A DNA stretch of 33,580 nt, taken from an uncultured Acidimicrobiales bacterium (GTDB lineage Bacteria > Actinomycetota > Acidimicrobiia > Acidimicrobiales > SZUA-35). A program made the translations under genes and the position numbers. The notes beneath the pieces were generated by a model that saw only the letters and a program-made list of their open reading frames with translations, ran no database searches and was not told the DNA's origin. Below are positions 17,007 through 30,003 of the stretch, one piece after another. Every line of letters begins with the position of its first letter. The stretch's first letter is position 1. The stretch spans positions 1-33,580 of the forward strand of contig CALHCB010000094.1 of NCBI GenBank assembly GCA_937930695.1, read 5' to 3'.

Positions 17007-18563
17007 CTAGCGCTCCGAGCCGACCGGCTTGGACGAGATCGATACTGGTTGCTCTGAAGGAGTGGCTGCAGCCTCACGGTCAAGGTCAATCGTAAGCATC
17101 CCGAGATCCCGCTTGGTCTGCGTAGCCAGCTTCGAAAGGGCACGTCGTTGCATCGGAAGCTGGACTGCGTCGCGCATCGCTCGGGCGACGTCGGCCGGGC
17201 GAAGCTGTTTCACAGCGCCGGGACTGTCTTTCAGACTCCACATCAGTTTCCGCAGTCGATACTCGGTATGCACCCGCTCGTGCAGTGCCCGATAGAACTC
17301 AGTGGGATACGGACCATCAAACAACATTGCGAGGTCGCTCGAATCCACCCAATGTCTGGTCCGGCCCAGTTCTGCCTCGACCCGCTCATAAAACGGCGTG
17401 CCCGGGAGCGGGTACGCCACCGAGATGCCGACGTCATCGGGTCGGGCTGACCAGATCAAATCCAGCGTCGCTTCGATGTCCTCGACGGTCTCTCCCGGAT
17501 AGCCAAACTGGATGAAGAACGCGATCCGATAGCCGGCAGCATGCACTCGATCTGCGGCCTCCTTGATCTGCTCGACTGTTGTGCCCTTCTCCATCGCATC
17601 CAAGACCTTCTGGCTGCCAGATTCCGCTCCGATCCAGACCTCCTCGCAACCCGCAGCGCCCAAGGCCTCGGCAGTGTCCTTTCGGACCAGAAGGTCCGGA
17701 CGGCTCAGACACTTGAACGGCAAACGCACATCGTGCTCGTCAACCAGGTCAGCGAAACGCTGGATCCACCCCGGCTTGAGACCGAAGATGTCATCCGCGA
17801 ACCAAATGTGATCTGGTCCGTACATACTCGTGACCTCGACCATTTCCGCAACGACATCGTCTGCCGAGCGAGCGTTGTACCGCTGGCCCCAAATCGGCTT
17901 CGAACACCAATTGCAGTGATAGGGACACCCTCGAGTCGTCACGAGGTTCAGTGAGAACCGACCATGGTGTTCGTTCCAAATCTTGCGATATCGATCCACA
18001 TCGATGAGGTCGCGGGCAGCGAATGGAACCGAGTCGATGCCTTTCATGTTGCGACGGCGATCGCCAGTAACGACCTCCCCATCCGACCCTTTTGTGGAAA
18101 CGCTGGCGAGTCCAACGATCGATTCGCCCGTTTGATGAGCGTCAAGAACCTCGAGCAGGGCCTCCTCGCCCTCACCAGAGATCACCGCATCGGCTCCCGC
18201 GTTCAAGAACACTTCCGCGTTGTCGCTGGCATCAGAGCCGGTGGCGACAACGAGGTCAACCGTTTCCTGCGCAACCCCCAGCATTTCGACCGCCGCTTCC
18301 CGCATGCGCGAGAGACACATCTTTGACAGGTAGTTGAAGTTGTCTTCGAAGATCACCGCAGCATCCGGCTCATGTTCGGTGAGCAGCTGGACCCAACCCG
18401 CGGTTGAGGTCTCGAGCATCGCGTCAAAAACAACAACGTCGTGGCCGTCGGCTCGCAACATCGAAGCCGCGATGAGTGTCCCCAGCGGCGGATACGGCTG
18501 TCGCGCATCTGCCAGCTTTGGATCGAAATGCTGAAAGTAGGAGTGACCAATCAGAATCTTCAT
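17007..18563 (-). CDS. B12-binding radical SAM protein
   Basis: The 518-residue protein has an N-terminal cobalamin-binding fold (about 1-150; PPLGTLIAASMLRADGHDVV and VVATGSDASDNAEVFL, GADAVISGEGEEALLEVL). A radical SAM barrel follows with the 4Fe-4S motif TTRGCPYHCNWCSKP (Cys213, Cys217, Cys220). Later segments are HIWFADDIFGLKPGW, EEVWIGAESGSQKVLDAMEK and FFIQFGYPGETVEDIEATL. This is the class B (BchE/P-methylase-like) layout, whose members methylate unactivated carbons or cyclise; the B12 domain lacks DxHxxG, as usual in this class. It is the last gene of the eight-gene glycan operon, overlapping the methyltransferase by ATGA. A C-methylation or sugar rearrangement of a glycan or its lipid is inferred. 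Confidence 0.9.
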   Translation of the reverse strand: MKILIGHSYFQHFDPKLADARQPYPPLGTLIAASMLRADGHDVVVFDAMLETSTAGWVQLLTEHEPDAAVIFEDNFNYLSKMCLSRMREAAVEMLGVAQETVDLVVATGSDASDNAEVFLNAGADAVISGEGEEALLEVLDAHQTGESIVGLASVSTKGSDGEVVTGDRRRNMKGIDSVPFAARDLIDVDRYRKIWNEHHGRFSLNLVTTRGCPYHCNWCSKPIWGQRYNARSADDVVAEMVEVTSMYGPDHIWFADDIFGLKPGWIQRFADLVDEHDVRLPFKCLSRPDLLVRKDTAEALGAAGCEEVWIGAESGSQKVLDAMEKGTTVEQIKEAADRVHAAGYRIAFFIQFGYPGETVEDIEATLDLIWSARPDDVGISVAYPLPGTPFYERVEAELGRTRHWVDSSDLAMLFDGPYPTEFYRALHERVHTEYRLRKLMWSLKDSPGAVKQLRPADVARAMRDAVQLPMQRRALSKLATQTKRDLGMLTIDLDREAAATPSEQPVSISSKPVGSER

Positions 18564-19510
18564 CGAGATGCTCTCTCACGCTCAGGTTCGGGCAGTGTCG
18601 CCAGGATCAACGGCCGCTTCGCGATCTCTCGACCAGCTCGTCGGCGGCCCAGCACCGCTCGAGCCGTCCCCAGGAGTCCCGTTGGTTCTCCCGTCCGGCT
18701 CCAGCCCATCGTTGGATGTCGGCTTCGAAATGACGACAGGTCCTGCTCAGTCACGTAGCCAACGCCTCCAAGTTTGGCCGGGGCCACGGTGTGGAGTGAG
18801 CAGGCCATGAATTCTTCGATCATCAGCTGGCCGGCAGCAGGGTCGACGTAGACAGGCGAGTCGAGAATGGCCAGGCATCCGCCTGGCGTGAGAACCCGCA
18901 CGGCTTCATCGAGCACGTTGCCGACGTCGAGCGCGTAGTGCAGCGAGGCATTGAAAACCACAAGGTCGACAGTGTCGGTGGCAAACGGCAGTCGTTCCAT
19001 CGCCGCTCTGGCCAACAAGAGTTCTGGCTCAAGTGCTCGGGCTGCGCCGAGACCGTCACCGAAGTCAATGTTGAGATCGATCGCCGCAGCAGACCAACCT
19101 CGGTCCAGCATCCGAAGAGCCAACCAGCCACAGCCAGCACCGACATCGACCATCGAGCCAGCTGGCACCGCAGCGATGGCATCAGAGAATCGATCGAAGG
19201 ACCGGGCTCGCTCGGCCCACATCTCGACCAATTCGCCGCCGAGATCCTCGTACGGAAGTGCTCGAACTGCCTCGGCCGACGTGGGCAGTCGCCCCTCGGC
19301 CTGACGAAACCGACCATAGTCAGCAGCAAAGATGTCGAACTTTTCGCGCTCGCCCGGAAGCGTGAGATCGACGATTCCATCATTGATGGGAAACAACGTG
19401 CCGTTGTCGCCCTCGAGGACGTCGCCCGTTCGTCGGAGCCGATCGTCGGTGCCGGGCACGGTGAGCGAGAATCGGCCGAGGCCGGGATTGGAGTGGAGCT
19501 GCCCTCTCAT
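18560..19510 (-). CDS. SAM-dependent methyltransferase with Trm112-like N-terminal segment
   Basis: The 316-residue protein has a class I methyltransferase core: motif I VDVGAGCGWLALRML (about 121-135), acidic AIDLNIDF, LPFATDTVDLVVFNASLHYA (motif IV region) and LDEAVRVLTPGGCLAILDSP. The first 50 residues (DDRLRRTGDVLEGDNGTLFP then INDGIVDL) resemble the Trm112-like cap of many sugar and quinone methyltransferases, but lack its zinc cysteines. GGAG about 12 bases before ATG 19510 gives a ribosome site. ATGA overlaps join it to both neighbours. Probable role: O-, N- or C-methylation of a glycan or its carrier. Confidence 0.88.
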   Translation of the reverse strand: MRGQLHSNPGLGRFSLTVPGTDDRLRRTGDVLEGDNGTLFPINDGIVDLTLPGEREKFDIFAADYGRFRQAEGRLPTSAEAVRALPYEDLGGELVEMWAERARSFDRFSDAIAAVPAGSMVDVGAGCGWLALRMLDRGWSAAAIDLNIDFGDGLGAARALEPELLLARAAMERLPFATDTVDLVVFNASLHYALDVGNVLDEAVRVLTPGGCLAILDSPVYVDPAAGQLMIEEFMACSLHTVAPAKLGGVGYVTEQDLSSFRSRHPTMGWSRTGEPTGLLGTARAVLGRRRAGREIAKRPLILATLPEPERERASR

Positions 19511-20337
19511 GAAGCCTGCTCCAAGACGATCACATGGTGATCACCGATGCCGAACCGAGCCGCCGGCCGCTCAGCCCAGCGGTCGAGCCGCCGAAGGGCA
19601 CTCAGCAGTCGAGGCCGCTCCTCAACGAGTGCCCGTTGTTCAAAGGTCGGCAACGCGGTGCCAATTGCATATGACGAGCGCACCTTCAGCGAACGGGAAA
19701 CAGCCCGCTCGATGTCTCGGGCAGAGAGGTATCGAACGGGAAGCCCGTCATATCCCGGGACACCGCGGTCGTCCCCCTCCCGCAGATCCAACGTGCGACG
19801 TCTCTGCAACAGCTCGCGATTGCGTCCGAGGAGCCCTTGGAAAAGCTCAGGTGGACACCATGGCGCCATAGATACGAGCACGACAGTTCCGTCCGGGGCG
19901 AGCGCCCGGCTGATCGCCGCAGCGAACGTGGGCAACTCGGTCAAACAATTGATCACCCCGAAATTTGAAACGATGACATCTGCTTGCTCACCGGCGGCGT
20001 CGAGCAAGTCGAGATGATCAAGGTCGCCCTCAACCGTCCTCACCAACTGACTCTTGGCCGCACGCTCAACGCGGGCAGCACACGCAGCCACCATTGCGGG
20101 CGACACATCGATCGCCGTGACGTCGCATCCATGAGCTGCGAACCACAACGCATCGAGCCCCGTGCCACATCCGAGATCGAACACGCGCTTGCCCGGGGCA
20201 ACGAAGGGACGAAGCTCGTCACGAACCCGATCTCGAAAGACGCGACCGACAACAGAGAGCGCGACGTCGTCATAGCTCGACGCGTGCGCGTCAAAGGTCG
20301 CGGGCGTTGTCGCGTCGACGAGTGGCGCCTCCGCCAT
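19507..20337 (-). CDS. SAM-dependent methyltransferase
   Basis: The 276-residue protein has a class I fold with motif I RVFDLGCGTGLDALWFAAHG (about 51-70), CDVTAIDVSPAMV, then VRTVEGDLDHLDLL, VIVSNFGVINCLTELPTFAA, and a post-core ALAPDGTVVLVSM. The N-terminal TFDAHASSYDDVA is common in small-molecule methyltransferases. The C-terminal half (LPVRYLSARDIERAVSRSLK) is specific and likely reads the substrate. ATG 20337 shares one base with the TGA stop of the nucleotidyltransferase-like gene (TGATG), so translation is coupled. It differs clearly from the next methyltransferase, so the two probably act at different positions. Confidence 0.88.
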   Translation of the reverse strand: MAEAPLVDATTPATFDAHASSYDDVALSVVGRVFRDRVRDELRPFVAPGKRVFDLGCGTGLDALWFAAHGCDVTAIDVSPAMVAACAARVERAAKSQLVRTVEGDLDHLDLLDAAGEQADVIVSNFGVINCLTELPTFAAAISRALAPDGTVVLVSMAPWCPPELFQGLLGRNRELLQRRRTLDLREGDDRGVPGYDGLPVRYLSARDIERAVSRSLKVRSSYAIGTALPTFEQRALVEERPRLLSALRRLDRWAERPAARFGIGDHHVIVLEQAS

Positions 20338-21320
20338 CAGTCCGCTTCCAATCGGGCCTGCCACGCCTCATCAATTCCCGCTGCGTTGCCAACCATGTGC
20401 CCCTTGCAGACATCGGCTGAGAACGAAGACTCATCCGGAGCGCCAACTTCAGGTCGCCGAGAAGCAACCGAGCTGAGACGGGCAATCTTGCGACGCATTT
20501 CCCACCGTTCAACCCGGTCGAACATGGGGCGACGCAACAACAGTTCGGCCAGAGCGGTGAACCGGGAACGAGAGATCTCCACGGTCCGTGACTGATCGCC
20601 CTCACTCGTTGCGTTGGGCAAGAAGTCGAACATCCAGTTGTTGCGTCGTCGCAAATCGCTGCATCGGGCACCATCGACGATCGGCACCATCTGAGCGAGC
20701 TCACGGGCGACGTAGAGCGCTCGATCGTCAATGTCGAGTGCTCGCTCACTCACAAGGTAGTTGGGACACAACTCGATGTTCTCTCGTTCGGCGAGCTTCA
20801 CGAGGCCCACGATCATGAAACGGGTCAGCCACAAACGAGTGGGGGCCGTGATCACGAAGTAGTCGATGTCGTCGTGGTCCGCGACGCTGTCGACGGCCAA
20901 GCCACCAGTCACCGCCACCATCCGGACGAACGGGACGCGTCCCATTCGCTTTCCCCAGCGCTGGGCGGCTTCCCACATCTCCTGAGCGCGCTCGTCACGC
21001 TCGTCGTGCACCACCAAGACGTCAACCCGTCCTGGTAGGTGCAACAAATCTCCCCGTCGCCCAAGATGGCCGTTGGCAACAAGTGCGCTGGTTCGTTCAG
21101 CAACTTCGCTCGCCGCGGCCTCACACTCGACAAGAAAGCGATGCGTCCGGCCGAGCGAGATCGGCATGTCGAACACATCTGCGTATGCCACAGTGGCCAC
21201 GATCGCGTGGTCGATCTCTGCCTCACGCTCCCGGTTGGGGCGGCGCTCGTCGCGAAGATCGATGGTCAACTCAGATTCTGTTGCCAGGTGCCCCGGCGGC
21301 CCAACTAGCTCATCTCCCAT
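20337..21320 (-). CDS. Winged-helix / nucleotidyltransferase-fold protein of unknown role
   Basis: The 327-residue protein has an N-terminal helical segment, probably winged-helix (EIDHAIVATVAYADVFDMPI, about 35-54). A nucleotidyltransferase-fold motif follows, VAVTGGLAVDSVADHDDIDY (about 135-154): the GG turn and the D-I-D pair (Asp151, Asp153) are the metal-binding acids. Further conserved blocks are RLWLTRFMIVGLVKLAE, ELCPNYLVSERALDIDDRAL, and NNWMFDFLPNATSEG. I recall the same N-terminal wHTH plus NTase order in uncharacterised bacterial proteins, but not a function. In this operon it could transfer a nucleotide or activate a sugar, or act as a regulator. It overlaps the upstream glycosyltransferase by 16 bp. 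Confidence 0.75.
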   Translation of the reverse strand: MGDELVGPPGHLATESELTIDLRDERRPNREREAEIDHAIVATVAYADVFDMPISLGRTHRFLVECEAAASEVAERTSALVANGHLGRRGDLLHLPGRVDVLVVHDERDERAQEMWEAAQRWGKRMGRVPFVRMVAVTGGLAVDSVADHDDIDYFVITAPTRLWLTRFMIVGLVKLAERENIELCPNYLVSERALDIDDRALYVARELAQMVPIVDGARCSDLRRRNNWMFDFLPNATSEGDQSRTVEISRSRFTALAELLLRRPMFDRVERWEMRRKIARLSSVASRRPEVGAPDESSFSADVCKGHMVGNAAGIDEAWQARLEAD

Positions 21321-22384
21321 GACAGCTCCCTTGTCTCAGCATCCAGATTCAGCGGATCAGGTCCTGGGCCGACAGCGTGACCGATCAGAGCACCGATCTT
21401 CGAGGCAGTTCGGTCCCACGTCAGCGGCATCAGCAACTCCCGTGCCTCCGCACTCATCTCATCGCGCCGAATCGGATCATCGAGCAGCGACACCACTCGT
21501 TCGATCGCCTGGCCAACGCCGTCGACCTGCATGGCGCTCGCACCAAGGTGATCGGCAACCGACGGAATGCGCGTGGAAACAACGGCTGCACCATGCGCTG
21601 CTGCTTCAACGGCAGGCAGGCCGAATCCTTCGGCGGTGGAGAGAGAAACGAAAATGTCGGCCGCTCGATACAAGTCGTGCAGCACGAGATCGTCCACTGG
21701 CCCAAGGTCCCGCACTGTTTTGCTGGTTGCCCGGATCGAGCTGCGACCGAAAACGTGGGCAGGTCCATCGAGACCGGCAACAAGAAGTTGGGAGTGCTTG
21801 CGCCGTTCTGCGACCAGTTCCAAGACTCGGAGAAGCGCAGCGGAGTTCTTCCTCGGTATTGAGCTGACGAGGCCTGCGACCAATGGTCGACTCGGGTCGA
21901 GACCCAATCGGTGCTTGGCCTGAACTCGCGTCCGTTCGACTGCGTTCACTGCGACCCCCGGGGCGATGACGTGAATACGATCCATATCCACCTGGAGCAT
22001 CGCGGCCAACTCGTTTCGGACCGAGGCTGACACGGTCACGACCGCTTGTGCCGATCGAACCATCGGTGGCATCAGCTTCGCCTGCAGCCGGGCAAAGGCA
22101 GGACTGACCGACCTCGGATGGGAGAGCGGCAGGATGTCGTGCACCACGACCACATGATCGGGGTGACGAGAAGGTCCTGAGTTCGCAAGACTCAGCAACG
22201 TTCCGGCCTGGGCTCGTCGAGGAAGGCTCCACTGCTCCCATGCTTGACCAACACCAGGGCGGGCCATGCCGGCAGGTGGCGACAAGACCTCCAATCCAGG
22301 AAGCCGCCGCGCCACCTCCGTGACATATCGACCCACGCCCCCGGGGCCAGCGGCGAACCCCCGACCGTTCAGAAACGCCGTCAT
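21305..22384 (-). CDS. GT4-family glycosyltransferase
   Basis: The 359-residue protein has the GT-B two-domain layout. The N-terminal acceptor domain starts FLNGRGFAAGPGGVGRYVTE, with VVVHDILPLSHP at about 79-90. The C-terminal donor domain has VAGLVSSIPRKNSAALLRVL (about 169-188) and the GT4 signature STAEGFGLPAVEAAAHGAAV with the EX7E pair Glu252 and Glu260. Conserved VIAPGVAV precedes the donor domain. It lies between a second GT4 gene and the nucleotidyltransferase-fold gene, overlapping both, and should add one sugar to the nascent glycan at the cytoplasmic face. No membrane helix is seen. Donor and acceptor cannot be told. Confidence 0.9.
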   Translation of the reverse strand: MTAFLNGRGFAAGPGGVGRYVTEVARRLPGLEVLSPPAGMARPGVGQAWEQWSLPRRAQAGTLLSLANSGPSRHPDHVVVVHDILPLSHPRSVSPAFARLQAKLMPPMVRSAQAVVTVSASVRNELAAMLQVDMDRIHVIAPGVAVNAVERTRVQAKHRLGLDPSRPLVAGLVSSIPRKNSAALLRVLELVAERRKHSQLLVAGLDGPAHVFGRSSIRATSKTVRDLGPVDDLVLHDLYRAADIFVSLSTAEGFGLPAVEAAAHGAAVVSTRIPSVADHLGASAMQVDGVGQAIERVVSLLDDPIRRDEMSAEARELLMPLTWDRTASKIGALIGHAVGPGPDPLNLDAETRELSWEMS

Positions 22385-23457
22385 ACCGCCACCCCCATGA
22401 GGTGGTCGGACATCTCGTCGATGAATCGCTTTTCTCCAAGCCGTTCCGCTCGGATCGAACGATCCGACGGAGCCGACGTGTCCATCAGGGCATCGACAAG
22501 TGACTCCACCGATCCATACTCATAGAAGCGACCGCCCGTCTCCGGACCGATGTGGTCAAGCAGGCCACGGGCTTGGGGAGCGACCGACGTCAAGCCGTGA
22601 GCGTGCGCTTCGAGTGGAACCAGCCCGAAGTCTTCAGCGCAGGTGATGGCGACACAGCGAGCGTTCTGGTACGCCCAACGCAACTCATCGTCGGATACCG
22701 ATGCTCGGCTCAACAGGTTTGGCGGTGCGTCAGCCAGCAACGTTCGCCGATGGGGACCGCCGCCAAGGTGGAGAAAAGTCTGGTTCGGCATTCGTTTCGC
22801 CGCCTCGACGAGAAGATCCAGACGCTTGTAGCCGAGGGCGCGGCTCACGCTCAGCACGAACCCCGGTTGGGCACCCTCAATAGGAGCGGCTGGGCCGCCC
22901 AATTCGAGGGTGGAACACGGGGCGATGACCACCGCCGGCCGCCCGTAGACCGCGGCGATTTCAGCGGCAACGTGATGGGAGTTGGCGATGATGTCATCAG
23001 CCTCTGACATCGCTCGCTGGTCAACAGGGGCAAGAACCCGCCGAAGACAAGCCGCAGCCACGCGCACGGGTGAACCCCACTCCGCGAGATAGCGGGTCGA
23101 GTCGTAGAGCCAGCGCGCCGGGGTGTGGCAATAGACCACCTTGCGACCGGTCGTGCGTACGTGGTGGGCAAATCCAGCCGAGCTGCAGATCACCAGGTCG
23201 GCATCGATCACGGTGGACCGGTACATCGCAGAGAGAAACGGCAACGATTTGCGATGATCCCGGCGAAACCCGCTGAACCGATCGAGCGCCCCAGTACGGA
23301 TATCGAGATCAGCAAACCCGGCGTGCGTCTGATCGGGGGCATAGACCGAGGTGTAGATGGGAGCCCCTGGATGTGCGTTCGCCAACGCCAACACCACTCG
23401 CTCTGCCCCACCGCGGACAGCGAGCGAATCGTGCACGATCGCCACCGAACTCGTCAT
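22381..23457 (-). CDS. GT4-family glycosyltransferase
   Basis: The 358-residue GT-B protein has an N-terminal domain starting AIVHDSLAVRGGAERVVLAL, with YCHTPARWLYDSTRYLAEWG (about 109-128), typical of mannosyl- or rhamnosyl-type GT4 enzymes. The donor domain shows SVSRALGYKRLDLLVEAAKR (about 203-222), LHLGGGPHR, and TCAEDFGLVPLEAHAHGLTS with the EX7E pair Glu275 and Glu283. ATGA overlaps join it to the phosphorylase-like gene upstream and the other GT4 downstream. It probably adds an early or middle sugar of the glycan; the donor is not determined. Confidence 0.9.
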   Translation of the reverse strand: MTSSVAIVHDSLAVRGGAERVVLALANAHPGAPIYTSVYAPDQTHAGFADLDIRTGALDRFSGFRRDHRKSLPFLSAMYRSTVIDADLVICSSAGFAHHVRTTGRKVVYCHTPARWLYDSTRYLAEWGSPVRVAAACLRRVLAPVDQRAMSEADDIIANSHHVAAEIAAVYGRPAVVIAPCSTLELGGPAAPIEGAQPGFVLSVSRALGYKRLDLLVEAAKRMPNQTFLHLGGGPHRRTLLADAPPNLLSRASVSDDELRWAYQNARCVAITCAEDFGLVPLEAHAHGLTSVAPQARGLLDHIGPETGGRFYEYGSVESLVDALMDTSAPSDRSIRAERLGEKRFIDEMSDHLMGVAV

Positions 23458-24161
23458 GCGGACCCCTCCAGGACATCAAGAACTGTGGAGACACTCTCAC
23501 ACGCCGCTTGGTGTCCTCGCACGCGGTCGCCCAATTTCCATCCGGCCGACGAGAAGTGATCGCTGACCACAAGTACGGCCGCGGCGTCCAGCCCAAGCTC
23601 ATGACACGCTGCAAACAGCGCTGCTGCCTCCATGTCGGTCACCGCGGCACGGGACTTCTGACGATCCAAATCACCACTCGTCAATCGCAACGGTGCATCG
23701 GTTGACAACGTTGTCGCCGGTGGACCGAGTGGAGCGAGGAGATTGCTGAGGGCCTCCGACGGTTCGAGGTGGCCTCCGTATCTGGTCGATGTTCCTTCAT
23801 CGCTGACTGCTCGATCAACCACAACGACATCGCCAGTGCGCAATGAAGGATCGAACGATCCAGCGATCCCGACGATGACAATCCGCCGAGCCCCGAGGTG
23901 AGCGAGAAACTCAACGGTCACCGCGCATGTCGGCCCGCCGGGACCGACGGGCTGAACGACAGCACTCCCCTGGCGCTCCACCACTTTTCGGAACGGTGCC
24001 GGTTTACGCCGACCTCGACCACGCACATGCGAACCGTCGAACACCAACACCACGTCCGAGGGAACAGAAAGCACTCCGTCCCCCAGCAGCAATTCGGGAC
24101 GCAATAGCGGTCGACCCGGAATCGGATCGCTCTCCTCAGAGCTCGATTTCCTAGATGCCAC
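23454..24161 (-). CDS. Nucleoside phosphorylase / nucleosidase family protein
   Basis: About 235 residues in the PNP/UDP (phosphorylase superfamily) fold. The phosphate or water side has RIVIVGIAGSFDPSLRTGDV (about 93-112). VVDRAVSDEGTS carries the family polar loop, and VTDMEAAALFAACHELGLDA the M-E-A-A sequence that holds the ribose hydroxyls. VLVVSDHFS supplies the Asp near the base. Such enzymes split nucleosides such as MTA, SAH, inosine or uridine. Its place among glycosyltransferases, two methyltransferases and a radical SAM enzyme suggests clearing SAM by-products (SAH, 5-deoxyadenosine), or releasing a base from a nucleoside-linked intermediate; both are inference. GTG 24161 overlaps the upstream gene by 11 bp. 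Not HpnG for certain: no hopanoid genes are near. Confidence 0.8.
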   Translation of the reverse strand: MASRKSSSEESDPIPGRPLLRPELLLGDGVLSVPSDVVLVFDGSHVRGRGRRKPAPFRKVVERQGSAVVQPVGPGGPTCAVTVEFLAHLGARRIVIVGIAGSFDPSLRTGDVVVVDRAVSDEGTSTRYGGHLEPSEALSNLLAPLGPPATTLSTDAPLRLTSGDLDRQKSRAAVTDMEAAALFAACHELGLDAAAVLVVSDHFSSAGWKLGDRVRGHQAACESVSTVLDVLEGSA

Positions 24162-25305
24162 GTCGATCCGTTCTGGAGCTGATTTCGTTCACCAATCGTT
24201 CGGAGAGCGTGCGCAATCCGGGCGTTCGTCCTCGATCGGCGAACGATTGGAGACGAGCTGCGGTCGTTCGCTCTGCCCGCCGTCCAGTGAGGACATCGCG
24301 AACACGGCACAGGGAGATCTCGTTTCCTTCAGTCCCCAATGCGACATTGACCACCAGAGGCCGGAAGTGCGCACCCCATTGCTGTTGGGCGGCCCGGGTC
24401 GGGCGAATCGTCAGAACGAACTCCGTCTCGATCCTCGACAGGTCCCGGACTCCGAGCAGATCGCTCGTGAGGTCAACCTCGGCTAGTTCCGGAACAAGCC
24501 GCGCCAGCGCAGCAGGTTCGAGCTCGAGATGGTCGTCATAGACACCGAGCGCTCGATCAAGGGCGAGGATCTCGAACGTCCGTGGCGCCCCCATGCTGAG
24601 CGGAACCTGAAAGAAGTCAGATGCCTCCGAAAAGTGCGTCCCGGCGGCACCGGTATTGGTGGCCTGGGCCGCCCGCGGGAAGAGGTAGTAGAGGCTGTTT
24701 GCAACGAGATACCGAACGGCATTCGGAAACCACTCATCCGGATCAAGTTGATCGAACAATCCGTGGAGGTCTGCCGCGGCGGCAGCATCGACGCCAGATC
24801 GATAGCCCGCCCACATGTTCTCGGTCCAGGCCATTCCATGGAACCAAGGGACGCGGGCGAAAAATCCGTCAGATCCGTCAATCACCGGTTCGAATGGCAG
24901 CTTTCGATAGCCATCGAACCAGGGAGCAGAAAGACACACACCGGCGACTCGTTGCTCAGCTTCTCCCACCGTCAGTGCTTCTGTTGCCCACTGCAAGAAA
25001 TGAGGGCCGACCACCAGATCGTCTTCCAGCAACACGACTGACCCGAACCTCGCTGTCAGGTCACCGCAGAAGTGAAAGTGATCAACAAGGCCAAGATGAT
25101 CATGTTCGATGATCTCAATTGTCCCGTGCTTCCAACGGAACGCATGAGCGACCGAGCGCACCTCATCGTGGCGATCAGCTCCGCCATCGATCGAAATAAC
25201 CACGTCGACCGAGCCGAGGACCTGAGCCCGTTCCAGAGATGCCAAGAGACGATGCAAGGACTCCGGTCGGGCATATGCGGCAACGACAATGGTTGGAGCA
25301 GACAC
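24151..25305 (-). CDS. GT-A-type glycosyltransferase (GT2 / GnT-I-like)
   Basis: The 384-residue protein has an N-terminal Rossmann GT-A region: PTIVVAAYARPESLHRLLAS (about 4-23), VDVVISIDGGADRHDEV and the acidic DXD-like motif VVLLEDDLVVG (about 91-100). It resembles GnT-I/POMGnT-type proteins, where LEDD binds metal and nucleotide-sugar. The middle has VPWFHGMAWTENMWAGYRSG, an aromatic-rich acceptor segment. The C-terminal 120 residues (from ELAEVDLTSDLLG) are unlike the core. GTG 25305 follows GAGG at a fitting distance. It heads the eight-gene minus-strand operon. No membrane helix is seen. Confidence 0.85.
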   Translation of the reverse strand: MSAPTIVVAAYARPESLHRLLASLERAQVLGSVDVVISIDGGADRHDEVRSVAHAFRWKHGTIEIIEHDHLGLVDHFHFCGDLTARFGSVVLLEDDLVVGPHFLQWATEALTVGEAEQRVAGVCLSAPWFDGYRKLPFEPVIDGSDGFFARVPWFHGMAWTENMWAGYRSGVDAAAAADLHGLFDQLDPDEWFPNAVRYLVANSLYYLFPRAAQATNTGAAGTHFSEASDFFQVPLSMGAPRTFEILALDRALGVYDDHLELEPAALARLVPELAEVDLTSDLLGVRDLSRIETEFVLTIRPTRAAQQQWGAHFRPLVVNVALGTEGNEISLCRVRDVLTGRRAERTTAARLQSFADRGRTPGLRTLSERLVNEISSRTDRRGI

Positions 25306-25399: not shown

Positions 25400-26653
25400 A
25401 TGGCAACCGGTGCAATCCGCGCAAACACAATTGCGCTCCTGGCGGGGCGGGTCGCTGCGGCCTTGACGGCCTTTGTGGTCGCGGTGATCGCCGCCCGCGA
25501 ACTCGGTGAAGACTTCGGCCAATTCGGTGCCATCGTCGGAGCGGGATTCGTGGCAAACACGCTCGTCACCTTCGGAACCGACACCCTGATCGTCCGGGCT
25601 GTCTCACGAGACCCTCGGGGCTCTGGAGGCGACCTCGCAGCACCAAGTCTCGCCCTCCAACTCGGTCTCGGGATGTTTTTCACGCTGGTTGCTGGCCTGG
25701 CGTATCTGCTGGGCATTGCATCTGGGGCAGTGCTTATCCAAGCAGCCTTGCTGGCTCCCCAGGCCGTCATCACCGTCGCCGGCTCAGTTCTCCGAGGCCG
25801 CCAGCACATGGTCCAGATGGTGACGGGCAACGCCGTCGGTGGCGTCGTTTCCGTGATCGCATCACTGGCCCTGTTCGCCAGCCGAACGGGCGTGTGGGTC
25901 CCAATCCTTGCCCTCGGTGTTGGCCAAGTCGTCACGGCAATGATCAACGGACGCCAAGCTCAACTGAAACTTCGGATCCCGGCATCGACACACGAGATCC
26001 GTTCCCTGATCCGGGTCACTTCGGCCTTTGCCGTGATGGTGATCGCCACAACGGTCTCCGGACAGATCACGATGATCGTGCTCGGAGGGTTCGGGGTCGC
26101 CGGGGCAGCCGGTTTCGCCGGTGCGATGCGATTCCTCGAGGCTGCACGTCTACTTCCGGCTTCGGCCTACGGGGCCGCCTTCCCTGCGATGGCAGATCGG
26201 GTCCATCGACGACCGGCCTATGCCGACTGGTCTCGCCGTCTTCTCTACTACGCCGCAGCGGTGACGGTGACCCTCATTGTCTTCGCTGGTCCGCTTTCGT
26301 CTGCTGCGTTCGGCGAGTTGATCCACGGGCCTCGATTGCTGCAGATCCTCGCTCTGGGAATCGTTCCGATCGTTCTCCGTCTGCGACTTTCGTTCGAACT
26401 CATTGCCGACGGCAAGGAAGGACAGGTCGCTCGAGCCGCCGTTGCCACAGCGGTCTTCATCGTCGTCGGATCATTCCTTGCCCTCAGCATCGGTCTGGCT
26501 TCGGATGACTCCGCCTCGGGAGCCGTCGCCCAGGTCACGGCCGCCGTGCATACCGCAGGCACCGTCCTAAACGTCGTCGTGCTCGATCAGTTCAATCGTC
26601 GTTCGAAGAGTTCGAATGCGGAAACGGCAGCTCGGGTGGAACGACATCGATGA
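25400..26653 (+). CDS. MOP-superfamily flippase (Wzx-like polysaccharide exporter)
   Basis: The 417-residue protein is mostly hydrophobic, with about 12 membrane segments. The start, GAIRANTIALLAGRVAAALT then FVVAVIAARELGEDFGQFGA, is characteristic of polysaccharide-biosynthesis (RfbX/MATE-like) flippases. Internal pairs such as GTDTLIVRAVSRDPRGSGGD and FAGAMRFLEAARLLPASAYG match the loop positions between helices 2-3 and 8-9. These proteins move lipid-linked glycan units across the membrane. ATG 25400 is used; the frame is open further upstream but lacks membrane character. Its last 62 bases overlap the end of the sulfotransferase on the other strand. With the ligase gene that follows on the same strand it forms the export arm of the locus. 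Confidence 0.88.
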   Translation: MATGAIRANTIALLAGRVAAALTAFVVAVIAARELGEDFGQFGAIVGAGFVANTLVTFGTDTLIVRAVSRDPRGSGGDLAAPSLALQLGLGMFFTLVAGLAYLLGIASGAVLIQAALLAPQAVITVAGSVLRGRQHMVQMVTGNAVGGVVSVIASLALFASRTGVWVPILALGVGQVVTAMINGRQAQLKLRIPASTHEIRSLIRVTSAFAVMVIATTVSGQITMIVLGGFGVAGAAGFAGAMRFLEAARLLPASAYGAAFPAMADRVHRRPAYADWSRRLLYYAAAVTVTLIVFAGPLSSAAFGELIHGPRLLQILALGIVPIVLRLRLSFELIADGKEGQVARAAVATAVFIVVGSFLALSIGLASDDSASGAVAQVTAAVHTAGTVLNVVVLDQFNRRSKSSNAETAARVERHR

Positions 26654-27191
26654 AACCACTCAACGGCTCCCAATCGAGACCGTCACGAAGATCCAGCCAC
26701 AGAACATCATCGCGATCTTTCGACCAGCTCCTGAGCCATTCGTAGTGCTGCCCGTGGATCTCAGCCAGGACGTTCTCGTCGAACCGATCGGTGCCGTAGA
26801 CCACACGATGGACGTGGTGACCAAGCCGTCGAGTGCGTCGATCGAGCCGCTCCATGCCCGGTCCGAACAGCCACTGCATCGACCCGAGCCATTCGTCGCA
26901 GGGCCGCCACGTGATCACGAAGCGGGCATCGGGCAAGACGCTGTCGAGCTCTCGGGCCAAGAACGGGACCGGATTGTCGAAGAACGCGTCGTGGCCGGCC
27001 AAGAAGCCGAGGTCGAGCCGTTCCACAGCTCCCACGGCGTCGAGAAGCACGGCTGACGACGGAGCGGAATTGAGCCCAGCGAGAACCAAGGCGTTATGGA
27101 GCGACGTCGTTCCTGTGCGCGCCAGGCCAAGCCCAACGACCTTGCGACAGGCGAGTCCATCCTGGGCGGGTCCAAGCGAGGATGTTCCCAT
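26592..27191 (-). CDS. Sulfotransferase family protein (short)
   Basis: The 199-residue protein has a PAPS 5-phosphosulfate-binding loop, VVGLGLARTGTTSLHNALVL (about 18-37), and a second segment LPDARFVITWRPCDEWLGSM matching the 3-phosphate site region (RP-D-W as in Sulfotransfer_4 proteins). It is short compared with many sulfotransferases (250-300) but fits the P-loop NTPase-like single-domain kind. Its 3-prime end overlaps the flippase by 62 bp and its start lies 33 bp from the divergent ligase gene, so it lies antisense in between the two export genes. Sulfate transfer to the glycan is inferred from family and place; other acceptors are possible. Confidence 0.8.
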   Translation of the reverse strand: MGTSSLGPAQDGLACRKVVGLGLARTGTTSLHNALVLAGLNSAPSSAVLLDAVGAVERLDLGFLAGHDAFFDNPVPFLARELDSVLPDARFVITWRPCDEWLGSMQWLFGPGMERLDRRTRRLGHHVHRVVYGTDRFDENVLAEIHGQHYEWLRSWSKDRDDVLWLDLRDGLDWEPLSGFIDVVPPELPFPHSNSSNDD

Positions 27192-27224
27192 AGACCCTCG
27201 ATCATCGCGCGAAGATGGCGCATC

Positions 27225-28844
27225 GTGAGACCCGCTCCCTACACCGTGTTCAGGGCGATTGCGTTTCTTGCACTCCTGGCCCCGCTCGATATTGCAATCC
27301 GGGTTTCGGAAAGTGGCGCACGACTGCGGCCGTTGATGATGCTCGGCTTCGCGACGGGGTGCGTCGCATGTGCCCGACGACTGCAGGAACCTGGCCGGCT
27401 CGACCCCGTTGAATGGGCCGTCGCGAGCTGGATCGCCGTGATTTGGCTCTCTGTTCTCACATCCGCCAACCCGCTCGATGCTGCCGCGTTCGGGTTTCGC
27501 TACACGACCTTTGGGCTGCTGGTCATCGCCGCTCGCTCGGTCGAGGTATCAAACCGGCGAAGAATCCTGGAGTACGTCCTCGCGGGCACAGCGGCAGCAG
27601 CCCTCGTCGGCCTCGCCACCGTCGCAACGGGCACCGATCCTTTCCCGGAGGCATTCTTCACTGGTGCGCCAACACGGCTCGGCGTGGTTGATCGTCTCAC
27701 TCGCCCGTGGCCTCATGCGAACGTGGCTGCGATGGCACTTGTTCTCTCTCTTGGCCTCGTTCTGGCGAGTCGAAGTCGTCGACATGCGCTGCCTGCCGCC
27801 TTGCTCGGGCTGATTTGTGTGACGGTGACGTACAGCCGAGGAGCGATCATCTCCTTCGCGGTCGCTGCAATCGTTGTCGTCGTGCTGTCCCGTTCCGGTC
27901 GTGTGCTCGCCTGGTTTGTCGGTGCCGCATTGCTCATCGTGGCCACGATGTTCATCAGCCCTGGTTGGTCCGGCCGGGGCGTGGAGTCCGACGAATCGGC
28001 CTGGTTCGGAGCCGACATCGATCGTCCCGCCGACCTCGTCATTTCCGGGCTAACGACTCCCGTGTCACTGAACGTATCCAATGAGGGGTCGAGGACCTGG
28101 GAGGCGGATGGGCCCGATGCGGTCGTGCTGACGGCACGTTGGATCGATGCAAAGCAAGACGTTTGGTTCGAGGAACAATGGCCTCTCCCCGACGATCTCG
28201 CTCCGGGATCCGACGTCTCGATGACGGTAGATGTGACGCTCGGAGTCCCGAGCGGCGACTACGAAATCTGGTGGGATCTGCTGCGAGCGAACGAGGCGTA
28301 CTTTCTTCAGTTCTCGGGACGGACGGCAACCACCTCGGCCTCTGTCACCTCACCTCTTGCGTTCGACACCGCCGAGTCGGTCCCACTCGTCGAACGACCG
28401 ATAGATCTTCGACGACGACAGCTGTGGACGTTGGGATGGGACGCTTTCGCCACCCGACCCATCATTGGGGTCGGTCCAGGCCAAGCGCCTCAAGCTGTAG
28501 AGAACCGCCTCGACGAATCGCAGAACTGGCCTGGTGGCCACGTACACAATCTCGGTCTCGAAGTTCTCGCTACGACCGGGCTAGCTGGGGCCTCAGCCCT
28601 GTTGTTCTTGCTGGGCAGTGCACTCGTTGGGACCATCCGTCGAACCGCTGGAGCGCGCCGTGATCTTGACCTCGGGCTGACTGGCTCGCTGGCCGCGATC
28701 TTGACCCACAGCTTGTTTGAGGTCCCCTTGTTGTTCCAGGGGACACTCATTCCACTCGCCATCGTTGTCGGGTTCGCCCTCGATCGACCGGACCCTGGCA
28801 ACACACTCGACGAGTCGGGTCAGACGAGCTTGCGGCCCACCTGA
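27225..28844 (+). CDS. Wzy/WaaL-like O-antigen polymerase or ligase with inserted Ig-like domain
   Basis: The 539-residue protein starts at GTG 27225; longer frames run into the sulfotransferase promoter. About ten membrane helices occupy residues 1-245, including MLGFATGCVACA and LLGLICVTVTYSRGAIISFA, whose loop Arg is typical of the family. A large external loop follows. It holds an Ig-like insertion (about 270-375): VISGLTTPVSLNVSNEGSRT (then W292), VVLTARWIDA, LPDDLAPGSDVSMTVDVTLG, PSGDYEIWWDLL. Then comes the family loop RPIIGVGPG and GGHVHNLGLEVLATTGLAGA with the conserved His441 before the last helices. The enzyme would polymerise or ligate flipped glycan units. The insertion is tryptophan-rich and may bind glycan. 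Confidence 0.85.
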   Translation: MRPAPYTVFRAIAFLALLAPLDIAIRVSESGARLRPLMMLGFATGCVACARRLQEPGRLDPVEWAVASWIAVIWLSVLTSANPLDAAAFGFRYTTFGLLVIAARSVEVSNRRRILEYVLAGTAAAALVGLATVATGTDPFPEAFFTGAPTRLGVVDRLTRPWPHANVAAMALVLSLGLVLASRSRRHALPAALLGLICVTVTYSRGAIISFAVAAIVVVVLSRSGRVLAWFVGAALLIVATMFISPGWSGRGVESDESAWFGADIDRPADLVISGLTTPVSLNVSNEGSRTWEADGPDAVVLTARWIDAKQDVWFEEQWPLPDDLAPGSDVSMTVDVTLGVPSGDYEIWWDLLRANEAYFLQFSGRTATTSASVTSPLAFDTAESVPLVERPIDLRRRQLWTLGWDAFATRPIIGVGPGQAPQAVENRLDESQNWPGGHVHNLGLEVLATTGLAGASALLFLLGSALVGTIRRTAGARRDLDLGLTGSLAAILTHSLFEVPLLFQGTLIPLAIVVGFALDRPDPGNTLDESGQTSLRPT

Positions 28845-29857
28845 ATGATCGACTTTCGCTTCTCGGGATCCGTCACGCTCCGGTGAATCTGGAACCATGC
28901 AAACGTTGCGGTGGAGCGAACGAGCTCGGGAAGATCACGCAGATGTGGGCGAACGTTCTGTCGTTCGAACCCCGCGTCGACGAGGCCGTTGCCAAGCAGC
29001 TTCTGACAGATCCAGATGTCGGTGTCGGTGAGGTCCTGCGTCTTGGCCTTGGAGAGCGACGAGTTCTTCCCGCCGGCCTCAGTGTCGTGCGACACATAGC
29101 TCTCGACGAACTTCGCAAGTCGATCCGCTACTGCGTCCGAATCCGTCCGCAGCTCCTCGAAGTCGACAACCTCGACGGCCTCGGCCGCTTCGGAGTTCTG
29201 CACCTCGACGAGCTTGGTGCGAGAAGCCTTCCAGTACAGCGAGGTCACGATCGGGTGGAACTGACGCGGATCGCCATCGCCACCACTTTCGACGGTGAGG
29301 TTCTTGAGCGAGCGCATGATCCCTCGAGGATCACGAATCATCCAGACAAAGCGCGCACCCGGCCAGACTGATCGCAGCCACTCGACGTGGAGGAAGTCCT
29401 GAGGAGTCTTGTAGCCCCAGTTGCTGCATCCATGGTGCAACGCCAGGCGGGTCATCCACTCTGCGGTGACCTCGTGCCACATCGGGCCCTTGCCTCGGAA
29501 GGTCTCGATCATCGCCGCTTCGAAGAAGTCGACTTCGGCGAGCGTCAGATCGGGAGCCCGGAAGTCAACCTCGAACTTCACGCGGGCGCGGGTCTCCCAC
29601 GCCAAACGATCCATGAACACCTTGAGCTGCTTGTCGCTCAGGGGGCCGTCCGGGTTGATCGCCGCTGCCTTTTGCACGGCGTAGAGATCATCGAAGACGT
29701 ACCAGTCATCGATCGCCGACAGAACGTGCGCAAGGAACGACGTACCGCTCCGGGGAAGCCCCACAACGATCAGCGGTCGTCCAACTCCTCGTTGGGCAAC
29801 GATCGACTCCGTCGCCTCAAGGGGACGGTCAAGATGGGGAATATCGGCAAGTACCAC
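28820..29857 (-). CDS. Sulfotransferase family protein
   Basis: The 345-residue protein has the PAPS-binding loop RPLIVVGLPRSGTSFLAHVL (about 27-46) and the second site GARFVWMIRDPRGIMRSLKN, where RDPRG and the following Ser bind the 3-phosphate. A middle segment WGYKTPQDFLHVEWLRSVWP (K-T-P-F) is typical of Stf-like bacterial sulfotransferases. The longest frame begins with a TTG at 29869; GTG 29857 is better because GGAG lies 7 bases before it. It is convergent with the ligase gene, overlapping by 25 bp. It may sulfate the exported glycan (inference). The 146 bases upstream hold two copies of ATCTTGAGG but no clear promoter. Confidence 0.88.
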   Translation of the reverse strand: MVLADIPHLDRPLEATESIVAQRGVGRPLIVVGLPRSGTSFLAHVLSAIDDWYVFDDLYAVQKAAAINPDGPLSDKQLKVFMDRLAWETRARVKFEVDFRAPDLTLAEVDFFEAAMIETFRGKGPMWHEVTAEWMTRLALHHGCSNWGYKTPQDFLHVEWLRSVWPGARFVWMIRDPRGIMRSLKNLTVESGGDGDPRQFHPIVTSLYWKASRTKLVEVQNSEAAEAVEVVDFEELRTDSDAVADRLAKFVESYVSHDTEAGGKNSSLSKAKTQDLTDTDIWICQKLLGNGLVDAGFERQNVRPHLRDLPELVRSTATFAWFQIHRSVTDPEKRKSIIQVGRKLV

Positions 29858-30003
29858 GGCACACTCCAAAAACGGTCGCCCCGAGTGCCCGCTCGGACAC
29901 AGTACGTGATCTCGTGGATCAAATTGTGGATCGACCCAAACTTCCTGAATCTTGAGGGGCTTCCCGCCGGCTCGCTGGATCTTGAGGAGTCGTGCCCGAC
30001 GGC

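Follow-up and report, generated by a model that had tools for sequence, protein, structure and literature searches.

An eight-gene operon with a predicted nucleosidase

The stretch of DNA analysed here (the window) is a 33,580-nucleotide contig (C94) from the genome of an uncultured Acidimicrobiales bacterium (G000; 4.36 Mb; GC content ~61%). Between positions 17007 and 25305 it carries eight open reading frames (ORFs) on the minus strand, g1 to g8, that combine glycosyltransferases and S-adenosylmethionine (SAM)-dependent enzymes with a nucleotidyltransferase (NTase)-like protein and a predicted nucleosidase, g7, the possible role of which in the synthesis of a surface polysaccharide is considered below. 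A first-pass annotation had described overlaps at every junction, and the ORF coordinates bear this out, with ATGA at four of the seven (18560, 19507, 22381, and 23454), TGATG at 20337, and overlaps of 16 bp at 21305 and 11 bp at 24151. Since high-GC actinobacteria often have tight operons, overlap by itself is weak evidence of shared function, and conservation of the unit among related genomes (G001 to G004) was therefore examined.

The first gene of the operon, g8 (24151..25305), encodes a GT2-like (GT-A) glycosyltransferase (PF13641, E = 6e-6; 26.9 bits, just under the Pfam cut-off of 27) with 55–58% identity in the genus. It is followed by g7 (23454..24161), a 235-residue member of the PNP_UDP_1 (NP-I) superfamily (PF01048, 1.4e-19), and by two GT4 glycosyltransferases, g6 (22381..23457; PF00534, 3.1e-10; EDFGLVPLE motif) and g5 (21305..22384; PF13692, 8.3e-16; EGFGLPAVE motif). 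The NTase-like g4 (20337..21320) precedes two class I SAM-dependent methyltransferases, g3 (PF08241, 6.3e-17), which from its ATG start spans 19507..20337 with an alternative GTG start possible at 20364, and the 316-residue g2 (18560..19510; PF08241, 3.8e-13). In G003 and G004 the identity is 55–56% for g2 and 47% for g3 (40% for g3 in G002). The last gene, g1 (17007..18563), encodes a radical SAM enzyme of 518 residues with a B12-binding domain, in which both domains pass the Pfam cut-offs (PF04055, 1.4e-20; PF02310, 2.1e-8) and the three cysteines of the CxxxCxxC motif (C213, C217, and C220) are invariant; it is the most conserved of the eight (80–81% identity in G003 and G004). Against NCBIfam, g1 reaches no cut-off and is generically BchE/HpnJ/PhpK-like. 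The families first assigned to the eight products hold in Pfam for seven of them (g8 just short of the cut-off), while the NTase fold proposed for g4 has no Pfam support.

Conservation of the unit among relatives

Two of the related genomes have the eight genes in the same order. All seven junctions overlap in G004 (4, 4, 4, 16, 4, 4, and 4 bp), where the unit sits beside other flanking genes than in the window, and three of the seven overlap in G003, where, given the starts used, short gaps separate the genes at the remaining four. The G002 contig, of 4.2 kb, carries g8, g7, g4, g3, and a portion of g2 and lacks both GT4 genes, including the g5 that would lie between g7 and g4. In G001, g1 to g8 are all absent between conserved Nudix and Wzx genes and there is no Wzy gene at the site, which consists of CoA-transferase, Nudix, Wzx, and sulfotransferase genes. 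The lone Wzx gene suggests loss of the unit in G001, with gain in the other genomes also possible. That the eight genes act as one unit, as had been proposed, is supported by their presence together in G003 and G004 and their joint absence from G001; the order occurs in two further genomes, and in part in G002, so that the refuting condition named with the proposal, an order confined to a single genome, does not hold. Across all eight genes the nonsynonymous substitution rate (dN) is 0.14–0.49 with synonymous sites near saturation, and all eight are therefore regarded as maintained proteins under purifying selection. No paper describing this eight-gene set was found in the open-access literature searched.

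Of the eight products, g4 is the one without a Pfam family. Its assignment as an NTase is based on a TGGLA-x8-DDIDYFIIT motif and on weak Foldseek matches to minimal nucleotidyltransferases (best E, 0.07) from a poor AlphaFold2 model (mean predicted local distance difference test score (pLDDT), 46). The protein also has a C-terminal CKGH motif. It shares with MntA/HI0073 and AadA a glycine-rich turn followed by DxD and a weak similarity of fold, and differs from them in its length (327 residues), with extra N- and C-terminal regions, and in the lack of any sequence relative in the Protein Data Bank (PDB) or any worthwhile Pfam match even at E 5. The DxD (D151/D153) is invariant in 12 sequences; a third carboxylate was not identified in the poor model.

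Named relatives of g4 with 66–74% identity belong to metagenome-assembled genomes (MAGs) of uncultured Acidimicrobiales. The protein is found in three genomes of the same genus at 65–74% identity, and at 73–74% in G003 and G004 it is second in conservation after g1. Searched against 345 genomes from the class to which G000 belongs, the NTase profile matched G000 only, and in the rest of the phylum a g4-type NTase occurs in 18 genomes of a distant actinobacterial family (f85) and once in another (f121). No relative of the g4 NTase was found in plasmid and viral collections, and the plasmid radical SAM matches listed are all below 30% identity. The f121 relative (L058:372-1184, G367:C85) adjoins uvrA on a short contig on which no glycan genes were recognised.

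A probable nucleosidase rather than a phosphorylase

The AlphaFold2 model of g7 (pLDDT 72) has as its best Foldseek match a 5'-methylthioadenosine (MTA) phosphorylase (1je1; E, 2.5e-13), and the ribose-side Glu178 and base-side Asp201 (SD motif) are invariant in the genus. The phosphate-binding arginine of the LRxG strand, which the uridine and purine phosphorylases of G000 and its order retain, is replaced by isoleucine in g7 and by isoleucine, methionine, leucine, or serine across the genus. It is for this reason that g7 is predicted to be a nucleosidase, and it probably hydrolyses rather than phosphorolyses its substrate, contrary to the earlier description of it as a phosphorylase. The arginine is also absent in some other members of the family, outside g7 and its f85 counterparts.

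Among the known systems closest to this one is Pfs/MtnN, which has in common with g7 the NP-I superfamily, the ribose-side Glu and base-side Asp, the lack of the phosphate Arg, and a proposed role in clearing SAM by-products. It differs in being a housekeeping enzyme, whereas g7 is borne by an operon, forms its own clade, and falls far under the cut-offs of the models for MTA/S-adenosylhomocysteine nucleosidase (MTAN; 32.9 bits vs. 169 for NF004079 and 18.8 vs. 73.8 for TIGR01704). The HpnG model likewise scores g7 (37.4 bits) below its cut-off (187.1). Elsewhere, G000 encodes a uridine phosphorylase above cut-off, a further weak member of the family, and an MTAN/futalosine-hydrolase-like gene below its cut-offs, so that g7 is not the sole nucleosidase-like protein of the genome.

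A comparable locus in a second lineage

In family f85 the g4-type NTase gene adjoins a GT4 gene related to g6, in loci with GT4 genes and a Wzy-like gene and, where contigs and scans reach, WcaJ, Wzx, and B12 radical SAM genes; an initiating sugar transferase is present in one (L055). A gene of the PNP_UDP_1 superfamily (PNP) lies within the NTase locus in 13 cases, and four more loci break off at the contig end on that side. The PNP gene is co-directional with a GT2 gene and two or three B12 radical SAM genes, and in G529, where it is ~9 kb from the NTase gene, it is still accompanied by them. A profile of the f85 PNP detects 18 of 249 genomes at 428–475 bits (next best, 87 bits), exactly the 18 that bear the NTase. 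Since all 18 belong to one family, this co-occurrence counts as one event. Each f85 genome has a single match to the profile (e.g., L055:5855-6583), and the glycan-locus nucleosidase may be the only easily detected NP-I protein of these genomes.

Like g7, the f85 proteins retain the Glu on the ribose side and the Asp on the base side, and they have glycine or serine in place of the phosphate Arg. Orthology of g7 and the f85 PNP was nonetheless rejected, as in a tree of 45 sequences each group forms a clade and a supported split (95/84) separates them, with g7 placed among uridine and purine phosphorylases and the f85 group among other proteins, a placement for which the long branches call for caution. 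As the clades are not sisters, the pairing with glycan loci probably arose twice. Read literally, the tree would have two distinct NP-I proteins join glycan loci that share the NTase-like protein, a GT4, and B12 radical SAM enzymes. One rival reading takes g7 for a salvage nucleosidase of the ordinary kind, present in the operon without any link to the glycan. Genes of the superfamily are indeed common (g7 matches in 46 of 99 genomes searched), and yet each of the four genomes with g7 keeps it in the operon, it is gone with the operon from G001, and a non-sister PNP occupies the comparable f85 locus. The salvage explanation is considered improbable.

Proposed role of the nucleosidase

The eight genes may represent the biosynthetic half of a surface-polysaccharide locus of the Wzx/Wzy type, in which the glycosyltransferases g8, g6, and g5 would assemble the repeat unit and the methyltransferases g2 and g3, together with g1, would methylate or otherwise remodel a sugar. 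The Wzx flippase and Wzy-like protein encoded alongside (see below) would export and polymerise the glycan, which a sulfotransferase may sulfate. Three SAM-using enzymes (g1, g2, and g3) share an operon with g7. B12 radical SAM methylases yield S-adenosylhomocysteine (SAH) and 5'-deoxyadenosine, and class I methyltransferases yield SAH. Gene order, overlaps, joint conservation, active-site residues, and the recurrence of a PNP-superfamily gene with B12 radical SAM genes in f85 are observed; the identity of the glycan, the acceptors of the methyl groups, the substrate of g7 and its hydrolysis, and the function of g4 are inferred.

Cells dispose of the product inhibitors MTA, SAH, and 5'-deoxyadenosine by means of nucleosidases of the Pfs/MtnN type (PMC8102628, PMC10986504). 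We tentatively favour a reading in which g7 is a nucleosidase dedicated to the pathway that clears 5'-deoxyadenosine and/or SAH, stoichiometric by-products and inhibitors of g1 to g3, at the site where they are formed, so that these enzymes would keep running. Of the readings that explain the pairing with radical SAM genes in both lineages, a nucleosidase specific to the pathway is the simplest. Such nucleosidases have rarely been described, though radical SAM enzymes and methyltransferases are subject to inhibition by their by-products. The first-pass annotation had offered either clearance of SAH or 5'-deoxyadenosine or release of a base; the former is now somewhat favoured because a nucleosidase travels with radical SAM genes in the second lineage too.

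Several observations weigh against clearance by g7. As noted, its scores fall below the MTAN models, and G000 encodes a full AhcY (610.7 bits) as well as the MTAN-like gene, so that SAH has another route and SAH and 5'-deoxyadenosine could be cleared generally without g7. In G002 the ATGA overlap of g7 is with the NTase gene and not with a gene for a SAM enzyme, and clearance of by-products leaves g4 without a role.

The direct overlap of g7 and g4 in G002 would instead fit a g7 that strips the base from a nucleoside-linked intermediate, formed through nucleotidylation by g4 or adenosylation by g1, leaving ribosyl or ribosyl-phosphate on the glycan. The hopanoid pathway offers a precedent, as HpnG, paired with HpnH, is believed to remove the adenine of adenosylhopane (PMC12583986), and the recurrence of a g4-type NTase with a PNP-superfamily gene in the same 18 of 249 genomes, all of f85, points the same way, even if it is a single event within one family. 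In opposition, g1 is a B12-type enzyme and not HpnH-like, the PNP of G529 stays with the radical SAM genes and away from the NTase, and the NTase activity of g4 is putative, with a DxD present and no third carboxylate identified. On balance, base stripping appears a possible but rather unlikely role. A specific form of it, in which g4 and g7 act as a two-step unit that places a nucleotide on a sugar or lipid-linked intermediate and then removes the base to give ribosyl-phosphate on the surface glycan, is considered very unlikely; if true, it would be a new way to decorate polysaccharides, one that arose on two occasions with nucleosidase clades unrelated to each other.

The adjacency of nucleosidase, NTase-like protein, and glycosyltransferases would also suit a g7 that supplies a building block, with ribose or a 5-deoxypentose released, activated, and used as a glycan sugar. 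Among the window genes scanned there is no pentose kinase or sugar-1-phosphate nucleotidyltransferase, and we regard this role as highly doubtful.

Were the glycan loci of two lineages to include a nucleosidase, this would show that surface-polymer synthesis can bring along the means to clear its by-products, or that nucleosides serve as building material. The comparison also marks the family-less NTase-like g4 as a glycan-locus gene.

Flanking genes and comparison with known systems

The locus has the gene content of a Wzx/Wzy-type surface-polysaccharide locus. Divergent from the operon is a Wzx-type flippase gene (25400..26653, plus strand; PF01943, 1.4e-15), the ORF of which opens at 25289 with conservation starting near the methionine at 25400, and the orthologue of which G001 keeps without the eight genes. 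Further along lies a membrane protein gene with a Wzy_C domain (27096..28844, plus strand; PF04932, 1.7e-11; 37–39% identity in G003 and G004). Of the flippase and ligase reported earlier beside the operon, the flippase stands, while the Wzy_C domain does not distinguish a polymerase from an O-ligase. Between the two is a short sulfotransferase gene (26592..27191, minus strand; PF17784, 5e-26; 58–63% identity in G003 and G004). As opened, the short sulfotransferase and Wzy-like ORFs overlap head-to-head by 96 bases; the extent of conservation points to a later start of the Wzy-like gene, near 27225.

A second sulfotransferase gene flanks the locus on the right (28820..29869, minus strand; PF13469, 3.6e-20) and was rejected as a member of the unit, as G001 keeps it without the unit (83% identity; L121:7453-8484) and no close homologue of it accompanies the unit in G004. 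Retained in G001 where the glycan unit is missing, this gene shows where the variable block ends.

Wzx/Wzy capsule and exopolysaccharide loci resemble the window in joining a flippase, a Wzy_C protein, several GT4 and GT2 glycosyltransferases, methyltransferases, and a sulfotransferase in one locus, and in the block-wise presence, absence, and relocation of genes with variable glycosyltransferases. Unlike them, the window has a predicted nucleosidase, an NTase-like protein outside any Pfam family, and a B12 radical SAM enzyme, and the window genes scanned include no initiating polyprenyl-phosphate sugar transferase, the rest of G000 not having been searched for one. As a glycan locus it is of a known kind; its accessory enzyme, the predicted nucleosidase, is what is unusual.

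The hopanoid system (HpnH, HpnG, and HpnJ) also associates a PNP-superfamily protein with radical SAM enzymes and glycosyltransferases, and an f85 radical SAM protein aligns with HpnJ over its full length. A hopanoid pathway was rejected on context and on scores, as g1 reaches 110 bits against the HpnJ cut-off of 578, g7 is below the HpnG cut-off, and none of the window genes scanned is a hopanoid gene.

Shorter B12/radical SAM relatives of g1, which end at about the position matching g1 residue 288 (LLDVxDxL end), occur in several genomes of the family (L108:9159-10337 in G000:C103, L112:7204-8253 in G003, L109:9784-10689, L110:5092-6363, and L111:7105-8070). In G000 and G003 a g3-like methyltransferase gene follows the short relative, with an MTTB-type methyltransferase gene nearby in G000, and this looks like a separate system of truncated architecture.

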